This document shows positions 3,101-24,066 of a stretch of DNA of 51,770 bases, piece after piece. The stretch is from a virus. Made by a program: the position numbers and the translations under genes. Position 1 is the stretch's first letter. Each line of letters starts with the position of its first letter. The stretch lies in the IMG/VR virus record IMGVR_UViG_3300020020_000041, positions 1 through 51,770 of that record. One strand, 5' to 3'. The notes under the pieces are model-generated. The model did no database searches, was not told where the DNA came from, and worked only from the letters and a program-made list of their open reading frames with translations.

Positions 3101-3334
3101 GCGCCGCGTTTCGTTTCTGGCGTCCCACAATCGGTCGCTCAACCGGTAACCGTCCGCGCGGACCCAGATCCGCTGCGTATCCAGATTCGCGGCGGCGGTG
3201 AGTCTGGCGGTCGCGGCGGTATCGCCGGTATGAACGCCGTACAGCCATTGATTTTCGTCCGCGACGGTTTCGAACGGCGGAACCAGATCAATCGACGGCG
3301 CCAGAACGTCGCCGGTTTTGGTTTTATCTGCCAT
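134..3334 (-). CDS. MuF-type minor head protein with two RelA/SpoT-like domains and a zincin domain
   Basis: This 1066-residue protein follows terminase and portal. Residues ~85-225 look like Mu F/SPP1 gp7 minor head protein (RRLARTEITRSHGQ, then HPHCLCF near 213-219). Two homologous units follow, ~296-445 and ~516-665. Each has the ppGpp-synthetase pattern RxKxxxSxxxK (R302-K312; R520-K530), an FDNLRYT motif (Asp333; Asp551), KNFWDGDGYVG and FELQFHT (Glu392; Glu611). The C-terminal region has a HEYGH zinc-protease motif at 984-988 and a possible third ligand, Glu, near 1029. Ordinary MuF proteins are much shorter. Known MuF polymorphic toxins carry variable C-terminal enzymes; here I infer virion-delivered nucleotide pyrophosphokinase and protease activities. 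The start follows the preceding gene with an 11-base overlap. Confidence 0.85.
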   Translation of the reverse strand: MADKTKTGDVLAPSIDLVPPFETVADENQWLYGVHTGDTAATARLTAAANLDTQRIWVRADGYRLSDRLWDARNETRRQIDGAIREGIAVGESAMDMARRVEKYLYPDLRPKRNEKGEIIPGQPKSIATEYPIAYGPGSYPARRLARTEITRSHGQGVENAAAHNRFVTGIKWTLSGSHPELDRCNLNASATDPAIRVAGVYPKGSLPRYPDHPHCLCFLSPYVDRSQIPNVIAQLRDELGLNNAAPSVFKFTPQFDESDPRILAATKSLIAKATAAEPAVTALLRTIGGEIDGELFGLKNRLKTVDSTVPKLAGDANAKGRTIEQAADGLFDNLRYTYELKEDAYSFGVTHAIDALQSEGYRTLRVKNFWDGDGYVGVNAVFETPAGQPFELQFHTARTLDAKDNLSHPLYKRQRKLDRVADAAEWNDLERQIDDVWAAVRADPPAIDGLTANINDRLENVADSGRRRAIANEATGAADRLISKAILEEATVSAQLTTAFESASTLTGADVRFEQFKNRLKTRVSTRRKIIGDVNEKGWSVDKVSENLFDNLRYTAVTNNPATYEEMVFSITDDLIRAGNKQIRAKNFWDGDGYVGINSIFETPNGQYFELQFHTENSITAKPRSHKLFDKQRVLDKEKYAAERAALQDQIDAVWIDVRAEMPPMPDLTAQLKRRSDPDYVPDAIGPKLRGAEIDEIVFAPDATESEFRDFVKTNFGGPDERMTQIRNQINFFEPKLATGEISFGEAIELIESQYGGLVPAKYLRKLGAADIDWAALKTGRRVADRSTFRSARPADVKRSISQYRNANRTLSPKLQQQLTSIEQTMGYGLITPEQAMRGLAHQFPEMTFPKRFTKAVPKSVRDTIKKPFERTFTRSASRDYIENNLNMTIIDATPSGSDIGGVALENIAKTFHDLRRAGYDIPSVIRFSDATSGGALGSYTPSIDQISIHYTADYWSNPRLFQKQQFDRGFLSTPDERHAMTHEYGHYLHSRSLGDVDMMDLAGRPIRPTDYRGAQTISHYALTNQAEFVAETYTKLMMGETVPPDVLASYKKYKGPPVRKFIDD

Positions 3335-3719: not shown

Positions 3720-4007
3720 TTAGACACCTTTCGGGAGTTCGATCGGATTTCCGTCCGAGTCGATAACGATCCGCGGATCGTTCGTTCGGTAGAAATTCCC
3801 CGCCGGCGGTCGCTCAACCGATCCGAGCGGAACCGGCGCGTCTGGCGGTTTCGTTGCCGATCGGGACTCGATCGCCGCGGACAACGCCGCGAACGGATCG
3901 CGCGCGGCGGCGGTTTCTATCGCCGTCGCGATTCTGGCGAGTTCTGTCGCGATCTGGTCGAGTACCCGGATCAATTCCGGCGAGTTAGATTGCGTCACCG
4001 CTAGCAC
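3720..4007 (-). CDS. Hypothetical protein downstream of portal
   Basis: 95 residues starting at GTG (4007), overlapping the portal stop by about 20 bases. The first half is helical (IATELARIATAIETAAARD), the second Pro-rich. The sequence around its start resembles the repeated motif seen at 10780 (CTAGCACC[CT]GTTTCCGG), so start-site regulation or shared ancestry is possible. No function is recognised. Confidence 0.65.
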   Translation of the reverse strand: MLAVTQSNSPELIRVLDQIATELARIATAIETAAARDPFAALSAAIESRSATKPPDAPVPLGSVERPPAGNFYRTNDPRIVIDSDGNPIELPKGV

Positions 4008-7724: not shown

Positions 7725-8579
7725 TTACTTGATCGCGATCCAGCCGGCGAAATTGACCCATCGCCAGAAACAATCGACCTCACGGAAACCGGCGTCGCGG
7801 AGTAGTTGTTCGTTCATTCTGGCGGAAATCGGGACTTGAACGCCCTCTAACGCGAACCGTTTCCGTTCGATTTCGTCCGTTGTATATCCGTTGTCGCGTT
7901 TGAGTCGGTGATACCGATCGACGAAAACCGTATCGAGCGCGGCGCCGTCTGGCAGGACTTTTTCGACCAGAACGAACGCGCCGCCCGGATTGAGCGAATC
8001 CCAGACGCGGCGGACGATCGGAATCCGGTAATTGATCGGAACGAACATCAGCGTTAGAACGGACAGAACGATCGACGCGTCGACGAACGGAAACCGATCG
8101 GTCCGGAGATCGGTTTTCTCGATCCGGACCAGATCGCCGGGATAGGTTGCGAACCGGAGTTTCGCGGCGGCGATCATCGGATCCGAGATTTCGAGTCCGA
8201 CGTAACGGTTGCCGGCGCCGAACCGGTTCAGAAACGGAACGAACGCCTCGCCGCGGGACGTTCCGAGATCGGCGATCGTCGAGTCTGGCGTCACGAACGG
8301 CGCCGCCAGATCGAACACGAGCGCGCGCATCTGGCGGTAATCGGGGATCGATCGATCGAGCATATCGTCGAATACGTCCGTAACCGATTGATCGAACTCC
8401 CACCGTTCGGTTGCCGGCGTATGTCCGAGCGAACTCGCCGGCGCGATCGGTTGCGCGTCTGGTTTGACGTCGCCGCGGAGTTGTTCGGCGCCAGACTCGG
8501 CGAGAACGATCCGATCCGAATCGGCGTATTCGTTCGGCGCGGTCGGTTTCCGGAAATAGTGGGAGAAATCTCTAACCAT
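7725..8579 (-). CDS. CmoA-like carboxy-SAM synthase
   Basis: A 284-residue class I SAM-fold protein resembling bacterial CmoA, which converts SAM and prephenate to carboxy-SAM (Cx-SAM). N-terminal FDQSVTDVFDDMLDRSIPDY (63-82) matches the E. coli CmoA segment [20 protein letters not shown]. Motif I is IADLGTSRGE (102-111). LNPGGAFVLVEK (196-207), RLKRDNGY and EIERKRFALEGV also align. Arg241 falls at E. coli Arg199, the residue that grips the Cx-SAM carboxylate. The C-terminal FWRWVNFAGWIAIK matches the CmoA end. The start overlaps the DNA methyltransferase stop by 8 bases. No CmoB partner is present, so a use in DNA rather than tRNA modification is inferred. An ordinary methyltransferase of the same fold is the alternative. 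Confidence 0.85.
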   Translation of the reverse strand: MVRDFSHYFRKPTAPNEYADSDRIVLAESGAEQLRGDVKPDAQPIAPASSLGHTPATERWEFDQSVTDVFDDMLDRSIPDYRQMRALVFDLAAPFVTPDSTIADLGTSRGEAFVPFLNRFGAGNRYVGLEISDPMIAAAKLRFATYPGDLVRIEKTDLRTDRFPFVDASIVLSVLTLMFVPINYRIPIVRRVWDSLNPGGAFVLVEKVLPDGAALDTVFVDRYHRLKRDNGYTTDEIERKRFALEGVQVPISARMNEQLLRDAGFREVDCFWRWVNFAGWIAIK

Positions 8580-10200
8580 CGATCTGGTCCTTTCGGTTGA
8601 GCGAATCGAGAATCGCGGCGATCTCGACGGCGACGGCGCGCATCATCAGCGGCGGAACGGCGCGACCCAGACGTTCCCACTGTTGCGCGTAGGTTCCGGT
8701 CAGTTCGAAATCGTCCGGAAACGAACAGATCCGGCGTAATTCCGGAATCGAGAATTTCCGCCGTTCGAACGGGTGCATGATTGTCGCGATCGACGGATCG
8801 CCGCCGGACGCGGTTAGCGTTCCGGCGGCGTCGTCCGGATCGGTTCGGACCAGAGAAAAAAATTTGCCAGATTGCGCGCCGGGTTTGAGTTTCCCCCATT
8901 CGTCGCCGATCGCGTAACCGGTAACGTCGAGTCCGGATTCGACCGCGGTCCGCCGGCGTTCGGCGATCGTTTTCCGTTTCGGCGGATCTGGCGCCGGCGG
9001 CGTTCCGGTTTCGATCCGCCAGCCCTGTTGTCGACCGCCGCCAGATCCGAGAATCGTCGCCATTGGTTCGTTGAGCGCGTCGACGTCTGGTAACGCGAAA
9101 TCGCCTTTCGTCCGGTTCGTAATCCGGACCGGCGGTTCTGGCGCCGGCGGCGTTCCGGTTTCGACAGAAAACGCGAATCCGGAGTTATCGCCAGACGCGC
9201 CGGCGGTAACGGTCGGTAACGGTTGATCGAGCGGGATTTCCTTTCCTTGCCGATCTGGTCGCGCGCCGGTTCCGTAACGAACGCGGACCGATCGCGACGC
9301 TTGAACGGCGCCCATTGGAATATCAGTTCCGTAATCGGCGTGACGATCGAATCCGGTCGCGCCCTCGATCTGGTCGCCGGATCCTAACCACGGAATCGCG
9401 TCGCGGACCGAATAGCGGTATTTGAGCGGATCCGGAAACCGCGGTTCGGCGTCGAGATCGTTCCGGACGCCGATAAATATGATCCGTTGCCGCTTTTGCG
9501 GAACGCCCAACCATTGCGCGTCGAGTAACCGCGCGCGGACGTTGTATCCGGCGTCGATCATCGCGCGCAGGATAATCTTGAAATACCCTTTCGCGGTCCC
9601 TTTGACCAGACCGGAAACGTTCTCGGCGACGAACGTTTTCGGTTGCAGATCGCGGACCAGACGGACGAATTCGAAAAACAGATCGTCCGAGCGTTGCGCG
9701 GTATCCGAGTATCGCGAAACGGTCCCCCACTTTTTTTCGCGTTTGCCGGCGGTTGAGAATGACGCGCAGGGCGGAGAACCTTCCAGACAGTCGATTTCGC
9801 CGATCGGAATTCCGGTCGCGTTGACGATATCGAGCGCGGAGATCTGGCGGATATCGGCGTCCGAGATCAGCGTTCCCGGTTCGGCGTTTGCCGCGTACGT
9901 ATCGCGCGCCGCCGGAACGAATTCGTTCGCCCACGCGACAGAGAAACCGGCGAGTCGAAATCCGAGACAGGATCCGCCGGCGCCGGAAAACGTCGAAACG
10001 AGTTTGTATCCGTTTTTGGGAATCGCGCGGATCTCGGCCATTGACGGAACGGCGTAGGGCGGTTTTGTCAGATCTGGCGGCGGCGGCGGCGGGATATCGA
10101 GCGGAACGGCGAGTTCGCTATGTGTCCAGAGATTACCGTGAGTCTGTACGGTCGGCGACGGATCGTCGACCTGAACGCGCGGTACGATCTGGCGCGTCAT
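8572..10200 (-). CDS. C5-cytosine DNA methyltransferase with motif X Asn replaced by Arg (predicted carboxymethyltransferase)
   Basis: 542 residues from an ATG at 10200 that overlaps the ParB-like stop (ATGA). All Dcm-family motifs are present: motif I STFSGAGGSCLG (69-80), catalytic SPPCASFS with Cys145, AENV (192-195), QKRQR (235-239), a long target-recognition region and motif X near 512. Motif X normally reads G-N-[SA]-V; here it reads LGRAVPP, with Arg513 (codon CGC at 8664-8662) in place of the Asn that contacts the cofactor. Lys/Arg at this position is reported to make engineered M.MpeI use Cx-SAM. The next gene is CmoA-like. I infer transfer of a carboxymethyl group to cytosine C5. 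The target site is unknown. Repeats ETGTPPAPEPP/ETGTPPAPDPP lie in the recognition region. Confidence 0.92.
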   Translation of the reverse strand: MTRQIVPRVQVDDPSPTVQTHGNLWTHSELAVPLDIPPPPPPDLTKPPYAVPSMAEIRAIPKNGYKLVSTFSGAGGSCLGFRLAGFSVAWANEFVPAARDTYAANAEPGTLISDADIRQISALDIVNATGIPIGEIDCLEGSPPCASFSTAGKREKKWGTVSRYSDTAQRSDDLFFEFVRLVRDLQPKTFVAENVSGLVKGTAKGYFKIILRAMIDAGYNVRARLLDAQWLGVPQKRQRIIFIGVRNDLDAEPRFPDPLKYRYSVRDAIPWLGSGDQIEGATGFDRHADYGTDIPMGAVQASRSVRVRYGTGARPDRQGKEIPLDQPLPTVTAGASGDNSGFAFSVETGTPPAPEPPVRITNRTKGDFALPDVDALNEPMATILGSGGGRQQGWRIETGTPPAPDPPKRKTIAERRRTAVESGLDVTGYAIGDEWGKLKPGAQSGKFFSLVRTDPDDAAGTLTASGGDPSIATIMHPFERRKFSIPELRRICSFPDDFELTGTYAQQWERLGRAVPPLMMRAVAVEIAAILDSLNRKDQIDG

Positions 10201-10751
10201 CCGGACGTTTTTCCGGACCATTCGTACCCGCATTTCGGGCACTCGAAATCGGTCGCGATATTCTCGCCGTATTCCGGAAACTCGGACGGCGGCGTTCCGC
10301 CAGATCCGCCGGCGCCGTTCTCCGCGTCGCGTTCGGCGATCGCGGTGAGTTCCCATTCGGCGAACGCGTCCGCCGGTAGTAATCCGCGGTCGCGATCGGC
10401 GGCGATTTGTTCGGCGTCCCACGCCAGATCGATTTCGGCGGCGCGGTTGTCCGTATAGGCCAGACCGCGACCGATCGGCGTATCGATCTCGACGTCCGTT
10501 CGTTGAACGACAACGAGTTTTGTTCCGTCCGATTGAATCGTTTCGATATCGAGTCCGAGTTCGCGCGCCTGTTCGAGCGTTTTGTTGCCGGCGATAACCG
10601 TTCCGGCGCGATCGACCAGAATCGAGCGACCGGCGCCGTAATCCGAGATCGAGTCATAAATCATCGTTCGACCGCGGTCCGTTCCGACGTTTGCGTTATT
10701 CGCGTCGAGAATCAGGTCCGCGGCTGATCGGATCGTTTTCCGGCGTGCCAA
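10197..10751 (-). CDS. ParB-like (Srx-fold) domain protein with C-terminal zinc ribbon
   Basis: 184 residues from TTG 10751, with a well-placed AAAGGA ribosome site. The N-terminal half has the ParB/sulfiredoxin fold pattern ILVDRAGTVIAGNKTLEQA (44-62), then VVVQRTDVEI. A CPKCG zinc knuckle sits at 171-175. The partition ParB motif GxxRxxA is altered (GNKTLEQA) and no HTH is visible, so this is not a chromosome-type ParB and should not bind parS. Such domains often precede DNA methyltransferases in phages. The stop overlaps the methyltransferase start by 4 bases, so it belongs to the modification operon, perhaps guiding or regulating the modification. Confidence 0.8.
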   Translation of the reverse strand: MARRKTIRSAADLILDANNANVGTDRGRTMIYDSISDYGAGRSILVDRAGTVIAGNKTLEQARELGLDIETIQSDGTKLVVVQRTDVEIDTPIGRGLAYTDNRAAEIDLAWDAEQIAADRDRGLLPADAFAEWELTAIAERDAENGAGGSGGTPPSEFPEYGENIATDFECPKCGYEWSGKTSG

Positions 10752-18045: not shown

Positions 18046-18075
18046 ATCGTACGCGGATTTACTCGATCGCGTCAA
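18046..18075 (-). promoter_or_regulatory. Promoter TTGACG-N18-TACGAT
   Basis: -35 TTGACG (18075-18070) overlaps the end of the helicase-loader gene; spacer 18; -10 TACGAT (18051-18046). It drives the HTH/zinc-ribbon/VRR-NUC operon. GATCG-rich repeats lie downstream. Confidence 0.65.
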
Positions 18076-18734
18076 CCGCGGTAATTGCCGATCGCCTCGA
18101 TAATCTGTCCCGGATCGAGTAACCGCGCGACCGTCCGCGGATTGAGAACGTTGTCGAATTGATCGAACGGAACGTTCGTCGTAATAACCGTCGAGCGGTT
18201 TTCCTCATATCTGGCGTTGAGTAACCGGAACGTTTCGGCGCGCGAGAAATCCGTCGAGTATTCGGTTCCGATATCGTCGACGATCAGGATATCGGTCCAT
18301 TCCGCGTACTCGATCGCCGTCCGATCGTTTTCCCGGAATATCTGCAACAGATCGCCGAACGGGAGAAACGAAAACGATTGCGGATACGGATCGAGTCCCG
18401 CGGACGTCTGGCAGATCTGGCGGACCGCGCCGAGCGCGCCGCCGGTTTTGCAGGATCCGATTTCGCCGGCGAGTATTAGGTTGAGTCCCGGCGTGGTCCG
18501 CCGGCGATCGACCCATTCCGCCAGATCCGCGGCGAGTTGCCGGTTCGGTAACGAGTCGAGCGTTCCGGCGCGGTAACGTAGCGGAACCCGTCCCTCCCAG
18601 AGTGTCAGCCACGCGTCGAGCGCGCGTTCGGTCCGTTCCGCTTTGCCGATCTCGAACCGTTGTCGCGGCGGTTCGTTCTCGATCGGATCGTCGCTATCGT
18701 CCTCGATCGGTTCGTCGCTATTGAAATCGTTCAT
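18072..18734 (-). CDS. DnaC-like AAA+ helicase loader
   Basis: 220 residues from ATG 18734, overlapping the initiator stop by 4 bases. Walker A is AGEIGSCKTGG (Lys near 96), Walker B is ILIVDDIGTE (near 153) and a sensor-type STVITTNVPF follows. This matches DnaC/IstB-type ATPases that load the replicative helicase. No phage helicase or polymerase is visible, so it probably recruits host DnaB to the origin in the initiator gene, as lambda P does functionally. A Cys replaces the usual Gly/Ser within the P-loop (GEIGSCKT). Confidence 0.88.
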   Translation of the reverse strand: MNDFNSDEPIEDDSDDPIENEPPRQRFEIGKAERTERALDAWLTLWEGRVPLRYRAGTLDSLPNRQLAADLAEWVDRRRTTPGLNLILAGEIGSCKTGGALGAVRQICQTSAGLDPYPQSFSFLPFGDLLQIFRENDRTAIEYAEWTDILIVDDIGTEYSTDFSRAETFRLLNARYEENRSTVITTNVPFDQFDNVLNPRTVARLLDPGQIIEAIGNYRG

Positions 18735-19681
18735 TCTGGTTTCCCTTTTTTGTATTTCGCCAGTTCTGGCGAGTCCCATCCGCCGCGATCGTCCGCGGTA
18801 ATCAGTCCGCGCGCCGTCGATCCGCGCGGTTGCCGGCGAGTTGTTTCACGTGAAACATTCGGCGCCGGCGCCGTCCAGTTGAAATCGTCTGGCGCCGTCG
18901 GATCGCGACCGTACGCCGTCCGGAATTGCTGTTTCCAGAATCCGAATTCGGTTTCTCGATCGAGAACTTTCGCGACCGATGGAACGTAATGGATTCCGCC
19001 GGCGCGGAGTTTCGCGATCGTATACCGCGTTAGCGCGGCGATCTGGTCCGGCGCCGGCATCGTTCCGTTCGATTGCGTGTATCCGAGTATTTCGATCGAT
19101 TCGTTTTTTGCGCGCGCCCATTGAGCGGATTTCGGTCCGATCTCCGCGGCGGCGGCGTACGCGTCGAAAACGGCGGTCCGTTCGTCTGCCAGATCCGAAA
19201 CGTCCGATCGTTCGAAAATCGGTCCGCGCGGTAGAGAAAAATTCTTTTCGTTTATTGACTTGTTAAGTATGACTTGTTTGGGCAACATATTGGTCGCGTC
19301 CGGCGGCGTATTTGTTGCCCCTGCCGGACCGATTTGTTGCCCCTCAACCGAAACCGGACCGATTTGTTGCCCCTCGATCTGGTCGATCGGACCGATTTGT
19401 TGCCCCTCGACGCCGAGTAGCGACCGGTTGAGTCGGTAGAGATTCGTTCCGTAGCGACTCGCCTGTTTGATCGTTGAGATCTCGCCGAGTTGTTCGAGCG
19501 ACCGCAACGATCGCTGAACCTGAATTCGCGAAATTTTGACGGTCGCGGCGATCGTTTCAACCGCCGGATAACACTCGCCGGAATCGCGATCCGCTTTTTG
19601 GGCGATCGCGATCAGAACCAGCAGATCCGTCAGTCTGGCGGCGGAATTGGCGAGAACGCCGTCGATCCAGTTGTATCCCAT
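18731..19681 (-). CDS. O-like replication initiator with origin inside the gene
   Basis: 316 residues from ATG 19681. The N-terminal part is a winged helix (LTDLLVLIAIAQKADRDSG then VETIAATVKISRIQVQRSL) as in DnaD/lambda O-type initiators. The middle has three EGQQIGP repeats coded by DNA iterons, then an AT-rich stretch. The C-terminal part probably binds the helicase loader, whose gene overlaps the stop. A perfect parS-type site lies near residues 275-280. The start is chosen because a short upstream frame with a good ribosome site ends in TGATG at this ATG; the frame is open to a GTG at 19777. Confidence 0.85.
   Translation of the reverse strand: MGYNWIDGVLANSAARLTDLLVLIAIAQKADRDSGECYPAVETIAATVKISRIQVQRSLRSLEQLGEISTIKQASRYGTNLYRLNRSLLGVEGQQIGPIDQIEGQQIGPVSVEGQQIGPAGATNTPPDATNMLPKQVILNKSINEKNFSLPRGPIFERSDVSDLADERTAVFDAYAAAAEIGPKSAQWARAKNESIEILGYTQSNGTMPAPDQIAALTRYTIAKLRAGGIHYVPSVAKVLDRETEFGFWKQQFRTAYGRDPTAPDDFNWTAPAPNVSRETTRRQPRGSTARGLITADDRGGWDSPELAKYKKGKPE
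18842..18857. promoter_or_regulatory. parS: Canonical parS site (ParB-binding palindrome)
   Basis: TGTTTCACGTGAAACA is the exact 16-base bacterial parS consensus, bound by chromosomal ParB/Spo0J. It lies in the coding region of the initiator gene (residues NVSRET). Chance occurrence in about 52 kb is of the order of 1 in 10,000 or less. No partition-type ParB is encoded here, so the host ParB is the likely binder. Confidence 0.9.
19228..19290. other. AT-rich stretch of putative origin (unwinding element)
   Basis: About 60 bases with strings such as AAAAATTCTTTTCGTTTATT and TTGTTAAGTATGACTTG, strikingly AT-rich in a G+C-rich genome. It is adjacent to the iterons, the arrangement of lambda-type origins within the initiator gene. 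Confidence 0.75.
19280..19408. repeat. Iterons of the putative replication origin
   Basis: GGACCGATTTGTTGCCCCTC occurs exactly at 19326-19345, 19356-19375 and 19389-19408. A partial copy lies at 19310-19322 (ATTTGTTGCCCCT) and an inverted degenerate copy at 19280-19295 (GGGCAACATATTGGTC, 2 mismatches of 16). Spacings of 22, 30 and 33 bases are near whole helical turns. The direct copies encode the EGQQIGP peptide repeats. Confidence 0.85.
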
Positions 19682-19740
19682 CAGCGGCGATCCGGACGCG
19701 ACGCGGTCCGCGGTTCCGCGGTCGTGGATTTGATTGTCAC
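19681..19740 (-). CDS. Possible 19-residue leader peptide before the initiator
   Basis: GTG 19740, preceded by GAAAGGA with a 10-base gap, opens a frame of 19 residues (VTIKSTTAEPRTASRPDRR). Its TGA overlaps the initiator ATG as TGATG. This could couple translation of the initiator to the leader. It is very short and rests on context only. Confidence 0.35.
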   Translation of the reverse strand: MTIKSTTAEPRTASRPDRR

Positions 19741-19789
19741 GGATTTGGTATCCTTTCGGCGGTATCCTATTTGGCACGAACTGCCGAAT

Positions 19790-23319: not shown

Positions 23320-24066
23320 ATGCCAGAACCAGAACAGATTTCCGCCGCGCTGACCGCGCCGTTCGATCCGAGCGAAATCGAGATCAAGTCCGGAAACGTA
23401 TTTCTCCCTCACGAAATCGTTCGCGCGCGGTTGATCGCCGCAACCGGAAACGTATTCGACTGGTCGATCGATCAGGTTCTATTCCGCGATGACGGCGCGA
23501 CCAGACGCGCGGCGAATCAATCGACCGGCGAGATTCCGCGACCTATCGCGATGGTTGTTCTCGGAACGTTGACGATTCCGGGACTCGGATCGCGCGGCGG
23601 AATCGGAACGCATCCGATCGACGCCGGCGCCGGCGAGGACGCCGCGTATAAATCCGCCGAGTCTGACGCGTTGAAACGCGCCGCGATGGGATTCGGCGTC
23701 GGACTCGATCAGTTGTATATCAACGCCGCCGCAACGAAACGCGAAACGAACGGCGGATCCAGATCGGCGACGCGCCAGATCGCGGACGCGCCGCGGTCCG
23801 GTCATTCTGGCGGATTGAGCGACCAACAGTTCGCCGAACAGATCCGCGTCGCGGTTGTCAACGCGGACGGCGTCGAGTTCCGGCGTCTGGTCGACCAATG
23901 CGGCGACCATATCGGACGGTGGATTATCGTCGCGAAAAACGTATCGCCGGCGGCGGCGCCGTGGGTTCGCAACCGCGCCGAGTCCGCCGGCGTTCTCAAC
24001 GATTTACTGGCGCGCGAACTCGATAAACGGATCGCGCCGGCGCCAGACCAGAACGCCGGACAATAA
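23320..24066 (+). CDS. Rad52/ERF-like single-strand annealing protein
   Basis: 248 residues, ATG preceded by ACAGGA. The hallmark SDALKRAAMGFGVGLDQLY (115-133) with AYKSAE before it is the Rad52/22-family signature, and the N-terminal strand-rich part (residues 20-100) fits the Rad52 ring fold. It should anneal complementary single strands for recombination-dependent replication or repair. The C-terminal third is Ala-rich with a charged segment. Attenuation by the upstream terminator is likely. Confidence 0.88.
   Translation: MPEPEQISAALTAPFDPSEIEIKSGNVFLPHEIVRARLIAATGNVFDWSIDQVLFRDDGATRRAANQSTGEIPRPIAMVVLGTLTIPGLGSRGGIGTHPIDAGAGEDAAYKSAESDALKRAAMGFGVGLDQLYINAAATKRETNGGSRSATRQIADAPRSGHSGGLSDQQFAEQIRVAVVNADGVEFRRLVDQCGDHIGRWIIVAKNVSPAAAPWVRNRAESAGVLNDLLARELDKRIAPAPDQNAGQ

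Follow-up and report, generated by a model that had tools for sequence, protein, structure and literature searches.

An exact chromosomal parS site inside the lambda O-like replication initiator gene of a phage, and the recurrence of parS in phages of many hosts

The DNA analysed here, called the window throughout, is a stretch of 51,770 bases from the IMG/VR virus record IMGVR_UViG_3300020020_000041. Besides a probable lysis gene, the record has genes for terminase and portal as well as for head, scaffold and tail proteins. On the minus strand, at 18731..19777, lies a gene with a GTG start that encodes a lambda O-like replication initiator of 348 aa. This gene matches phrog_391 ('replication initiation O-like', 2.7e-13) and phrog_270 (3.1e-13), and its product has the N-terminal helix-turn-helix domain of O-like initiators (Pfam HTH_36, 1.3e-9). 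A second minus-strand gene, at 18072..18779, overlaps the initiator gene at its 3' end and encodes a DnaC/IstB-like helicase loader of 235 aa (phrog_50, 1.1e-19; IstB_IS21, 1.7e-7); a loader next door is typical of the lambda O type.

The lambda origin consists of iterons and an AT-rich stretch located inside the initiator gene, and the same layout is encountered here, where its role as an origin is predicted. Four GGGCAACAAAT iterons lie within the gene at 19310..19405 on the minus strand, forming three successive pairs, an arrangement that occurred in 0 of 100 shuffles. They are likely to be the initiator-binding part of the phage origin. Between the iterons and the parS site described below is an AT-rich stretch (19230..19291); the most AT-rich 50-nt windows of the region, at 70-72% AT, start at 19230-19242. 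By analogy with the layout of the lambda origin, this stretch is possibly the unwinding element.

Elsewhere in the record, the plus strand, and thus not the strand of the initiator block, encodes a Rad52/22-like annealing protein (23320-24066), and there are two methyltransferase-like genes (7725-8579 and 8572-10422). Several short words, counted on both strands of the window, are strongly avoided (AGCT 0, TTAA 2, CTTA 4 and TAAG 4 occurrences), and GGCC occurs 86 times against about 648 expected, which suggests restriction pressure.

A scan of the whole window found the palindrome TGTTTCACGTGAAACA at 18842-18857, which is identical to the chromosomal parS consensus (0 mismatches), just as a preliminary description of this DNA had claimed. 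It is the only site in the window at up to three mismatches, while dinucleotide shuffles of the window contain on average 0.14 such sites. The expected number of exact sites is between 3e-7 and 4e-6, depending on the order of the Markov model (0-4). Since the window contains five perfect 16-bp palindromes, parS among them, it is the identity with parS and not the palindromy that is remarkable. The distance of 420 bases to the origin given in that description also holds, as the iterons and the AT-rich stretch are about 370-450 bp from parS.

The site occupies nucleotides 921-936 of the initiator gene, that is, codons 307-312, which specify NVSRET in the C-terminal tail of the protein. The preliminary description had called TCA and CGT uncommon in this genome, which proved correct: over 13 genes of the window, TCA accounts for 7% of Ser codons and CGT for 7% of Arg codons, and ACA likewise makes up 7% of Thr codons. 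Three of the six codons at the site are thus rare ones. Calculated from rounded codon frequencies, NVSRET spelt at random would yield the parS 16-mer in about 3 of 100,000 cases.

No ParB_N or HTH_ParB domain was found in the record, which may be an incomplete fragment, and this agrees with the earlier statement that the phage has no partition-type ParB. The ParA-type CbiA domain, as well as the Phage_integrase and Resolvase domains, also gave no match in this possibly incomplete record. Thus, of the components that define a cis-encoded ParABS system, neither an own ParB nor an own ParA is seen in what may be a fragment of the genome.

Searches for relatives of the phage gave little. Scans of viral_contigs with the initiator, the terminase and the loader found no relative, and scans of genome_contigs with the initiator and the terminase found neither a relative nor a related prophage. 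These protein scans start from exact 8-residue peptides and may leave out records very near the window; because of the peptide requirement, only close relatives are detectable. A DNA search of phage records yielded no near-identical stretch, and the iteron pair was present in six stretches of viral_contigs, none of which had an initiator homologue or a parS site at up to three mismatches. Partial homologues of the initiator, 25-38% identical, are present in 21 phage records. Two of these records were examined, those of the distant homologues in KellEzio (18% of the query at 38% identity) and Pam5 (57% at 25%), and neither contains TGTTNCACGTGNAACA. The nearest terminases (the best 30 of 2,341 records) show 34-42% identity and belong to phages whose hosts come from several phyla.

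The parS palindrome is strongly over-represented in phage collections. At least 120 IMG/VR stretches carry the 16-mer, compared with 11 and 5 stretches in complete scans for two control palindromes of equal dinucleotide content, the second of which shares the inner ten bases of parS. A parS match, defined as an unbroken run of 16 or more letters from the 18-mer A-parS-T, was present in 315 of 50,697 phage records, and neither of the dinucleotide-matched palindromes has any match there. The full 16-mer was spanned by 54 of 60 evenly spaced phage rows taken from the 315, and 17 letters were reached by 38 of the 60. Many of the 315 are near-duplicates (Listeria 87, Microbacterium 62) and therefore do not represent independent events; given that they inflate the total, the weight rests on the contrast with the matched controls. 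The hosts concerned include Listeria, Microbacterium, Arthrobacter, Gordonia, Lactobacillus, Enterococcus, Bacillus, Ruegeria, Rhodococcus, Clavibacter and Spiroplasma, among others, and matches occur in microviruses as well. In plasmid records the count was 18 of 72,556, from which no conclusion is drawn because a match there needed at least 17 letters and the host make-up differs.

Among the IMG/VR matches listed, 103 of the 120 stretches have a single parS site, and two (L016 and L043) have five; these two might be pieces of host chromosome. The largest family among the 120 comprises 15 stretches and looks viral, since a terminase adjoins the site in the three members read.

The location of parS varies widely among these phages. 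A preference for initiator genes was considered and is unsupported, as no initiator was found among ten scanned IMG/VR frames containing parS. These ten, drawn from 82 open frames that span parS and are 120-700 aa long (a few listed twice), encode a tail fibre protein, an endolysin, a head-tail adaptor, a head assembly protein, a protease and one protein of unknown function, and the remaining four have no hits. In the Bacillus phage B103, an endolysin-type (lysis) gene holds an exact parS, and a further site differs at one position. Other phages have the site upstream of the terminase, inside an HTH gene, between genes for DNA polymerase I and a PurA-like protein, or with an amidase gene on one side and a tail gene on the other. 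Initiator genes do occur as addresses: the 5.4 kb microvirus L140 (PP511345.1) has two sites inside its replication initiator gene (3243-3258 and 3960-3975), one of them exact and the other with a single mismatch, and the parS match falls under the annotation 'replication initiator protein' in OP209175.1 and OQ686938.1. A genome of 5.4 kb leaves L140 little room for a ParB gene of its own. Another microvirus, bajarodino virus 3, has 12 match places, equal to six sites if palindromes are counted twice. The Gordonia phage Woes has parS copies at 781 and 1202, about 420 bp apart, and these are embedded in the longer palindromes GGGCAGTGTTTCACGTGAAACACTGCCC and CTCGATGTTTCACGTGAAACATCGAG.

Conservation of the site could be followed in a marine clade comprising 80 viral loci, which were fetched by their terminase and ranked by similarity to a parS-bearing one. 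The nearest isolates, Pelagibacter phage HTVC027P and phage 023Pt_psg01, are 62-63% identical. The clade, but not its individual members, was chosen for parS, and six of its 80 contigs are also among the 120 IMG/VR matches. The region upstream of the terminase was evaluated in 77 loci; L178 is too short upstream, and L250 and L251 were left out because the match starts at or near the contig end. Within 400 bp upstream of the terminase, the best parS match is exact in 53 of the 77 and has a single mismatch in two; in the remaining 22 it has at least five mismatches, and no locus falls between one and five. Most of the sites are 98-102 bp before the terminase match. Nine of the 22 have a site farther away, at about 1 kb upstream (exact in eight of them, with a single mismatch in the ninth), and 13 of the 77 have no site within two mismatches in the sequence available, six of these having less than 400 bp of upstream sequence. 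Across entire loci, 61 of the 80 have one exact parS, 19 have none and none has two; intermediate best matches are confined to one locus at three mismatches and four at four. The score of 4 obtained with the first control palindrome in the regions upstream of the terminase is parS itself, because that control differs from parS by 4.

In 26 dereplicated sequences from this clade, identity is 99.5% in the parS columns compared with 81.5% in the left flank and 81.3% in the right. These 26 derive from 47 aligned sequences, out of 55 with the site, and were chosen for having it at no more than one mismatch; hence, the weight is placed on the all-or-none pattern and not on the 99.5%. One of them, L200, has the variant TGTTCC.... 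In the HTVC027P-related loci (L172-L251), parS is followed by a variable inverted repeat, in many cases TTGCCTAAT...ATTAGGCAA, about 100 bp upstream of the terminase. ParB_N was found in none of the 29 marine records of at least 10 kb that have the upstream site.

A family of HTH genes in Microbacterium phages shows how the site fares within coding sequence. The gene contains the site in seven of 15 loci (five exact, one with one mismatch and one with two) and is without it in eight; seven of the latter records have no site anywhere, and the eighth, Kozie, has one elsewhere. The linker around the site varies among the seven, while GAT GTT (T/C)CA CGT G(A/G)A ACA is kept, and, in a small gene set from these phages, no codon of the common form accounts for more than 21% of the codons for its amino acid. 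In RobsFeet, the S at the site is replaced by P. Tyrumbra combines this change with a replacement of E by G and still retains a symmetric site, TGTTCCACGTGGAACA. In this family the palindrome therefore outlives the peptide, which is the opposite of a peptide that is kept without its palindrome; the loci without the site in the gene weigh on the other side. The preliminary description had taken the rare codons in the initiator gene as a hint of selection on the DNA. This idea gains support by analogy, from the excess in phages, the all-or-none pattern of the marine clade and the Microbacterium genes; in this phage itself, the site would be under the same selection if it behaves as those of other phages do.

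Whether phages bearing parS encode a ParB of their own varies. ParB_N was detected (E <=0.001) in four of the 55 parS-bearing IMG/VR records that reach 15 kb, drawn from the 120 loci listed, and three of the four exceed the curated cut-off. Among 28 named phage records, ten have ParB_N. Of these 28, 20 contain TGTTNCACGTGNAACA; seven of the 20 have ParB_N and 13 have none, so the rule that a phage parS always comes without ParB_N is rejected. All seven are Microbacterium phages with the site in the HTH gene. Merry and Jayden have ParB_N but no TGTTNCACGTGNAACA, and Warren has ParB_N with a 15-of-16 match only. The KaiHaiDragon protein matches ParB_N alone, with no match to HTH_ParB. Most of the parS phages examined thus show no ParB of their own, although many of the records may be incomplete.

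Most simply, the 16-mer in the initiator gene is probably a functional parS, on which host ParB would load and thereby mark the phage DNA for ParA or SMC. In favour of this are the exact match with its rare codons, the lack of recognised ParB and ParA domains in the record, and the excess and retention of parS in other phages; on the other side stand KellEzio and Pam5, the eight Microbacterium loci and 13 marine loci without the site, and the seven parS-bearing Microbacterium records with ParB_N. PMC12704722 describes ParB as a clamp that depends on CTP and that, once loaded at parS, slides and engages ParA; PMC10197239 describes the recruitment of SMC at parS. On this model, the chromosomal ParB of whichever bacterium the phage infects would bind the phage parS during infection, load as a CTP-dependent clamp and slide across the adjacent initiator and origin region. 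Because parS is near the putative origin, ParB would be present on newly copied DNA early, as it is on the chromosome. DNA coated in this way would be treated by host ParA and/or SMC like the origin region of a chromosome, with the result that it would be positioned, compacted or partitioned. The payoff would be largest when infection is slow, or when the cell divides or goes dormant. Which downstream machine matters, ParA and/or SMC, is a matter of speculation, and whether the phage would benefit through partition, compaction or dormancy is a guess.

The location of the site, within the initiator gene and near the iterons, makes it tempting to think of a local switch, by which host ParB would repress the initiator or regulate the origin 370-450 bp away and so couple phage replication to the state of the host chromosome. 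The two sites in the initiator gene of L140 and the annotations of OP209175.1 and OQ686938.1 fit such a switch. However, the positions of parS in other phages reveal no common local target. Since parS is found in or beside quite different genes across phages, a tag on the genome is favoured over a local switch, which we consider unlikely, and the earlier proposal that parS controls the phage origin is not favoured for the same reason. It is also rather improbable that the palindrome is an operator or recombination site for a phage protein, or for another host DNA-binding protein, and resembles parS by coincidence. Phage operators are often palindromic, and the marine site adjoins an inverted repeat upstream of the terminase, but the conserved block coincides exactly with the 16-bp parS, whose letters are found again in phages of unrelated groups, including microviruses of 4-6 kb with few genes. 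Moreover, the TGTTCC... substitution, which is presumably also found in natural B. subtilis parS, occurs in three phage groups.

That the 16-mer is merely an accident of coding NVSRET seems very improbable, given an expected count of at most 4e-6, three rare codons among six and an excess across phages over the matched control palindromes; what speaks for chance is that this is one phage with one site, that no relative was found for a comparison of conservation, and that KellEzio and Pam5 do not have it. Just as little probability is assigned to a decoy, in which parS would titrate or misplace host ParB or SMC and disturb host segregation to the favour of the phage. A decoy would likewise require an intact site and no phage ParB, but host chromosomes usually carry several parS sites, to which a single one adds little unless it is multiplied by phage replication.

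The use of host chromosomal ParB by a phage, as proposed here, resembles the case of phi29 and its relatives. Meijer et al. 2005, in EMBO J, reportedly described the Spo0J (host ParB)-dependent entry of phi29 DNA into spores. We know of no other documented use of host ParB by a phage than that of phi29 in spore entry. Phi29 infects a spore-former and its linear genome is replicated by protein priming, whereas the phage described here has a lambda-type initiator with parS inside its gene. B103, a phi29 relative, has its exact parS and one-mismatch site with no ParB_N found in its record, and the same combination of parS and no detected ParB is seen here, in a record that may be incomplete. PMC9437464, with a citation of Meijer et al. 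2005, states that Spo0J traps the phage chromosome in the spore.

Other systems share some features with this one. The chromosomal parS of bacteria, a 16-bp ParB site near oriC whose consensus is used in PMC10197239, is identical to the 16-mer in the window, where a probable origin is likewise nearby; the difference is that here the site is on a phage and no ParB domain was found in the record. The extrachromosomal prophage RedRock also has a partition site on a phage replicon but, according to PMC7157519, encodes both ParA and ParB and has arrays of an 8-bp direct repeat, whereas the present record yielded neither domain and carries a host-type site. The Staphylococcus phage Lacachita, as portrayed in PMC10286716, has a ParB-like protein without ParA, and so resembles the present phage in having an incomplete partition set and in that it may lean on the host; in contrast to Lacachita and its ParB-like gene, there is here a site with no ParB domain found. 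The island SGI1 uses the parABS of an IncC plasmid (PMC10954446) and is thus another mobile element that exploits a partition system encoded elsewhere, although its helper is a plasmid and here it would presumably be the host chromosome. In the open-access literature searched (titles, the beginnings of abstracts and passages), parS was not described as widespread in phages, and a word search of a 2020 review of chromosomal ParB (PMC7022226) did not find the word 'phage'.

Taken alone, the site adds a new case in which a phage probably uses host ParB, and its location within a lambda-type initiator gene is unusual. More interesting is the broader pattern, the retention of a host-type parS by phages of many hosts. 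It would mean that many unrelated lineages, from microviruses of 4-6 kb to tailed phages of more than 140 kb, keep such a site, usually one and mostly without a ParB, under purifying selection as a 'borrowed centromere' for host ParB, ParA and SMC; many of the hosts are not known to sporulate. We see the chances of this general statement as evenly balanced. Cultured phages that bear the site, on Microbacterium foliorum, Gordonia terrae and Bacillus subtilis, make the idea directly testable. If parS is indeed common and conserved in phages, the chromosome segregation machinery would be a widespread interface between phage and host, with consequences for slow infection, for pseudolysogeny and for the place where phage DNA is replicated.
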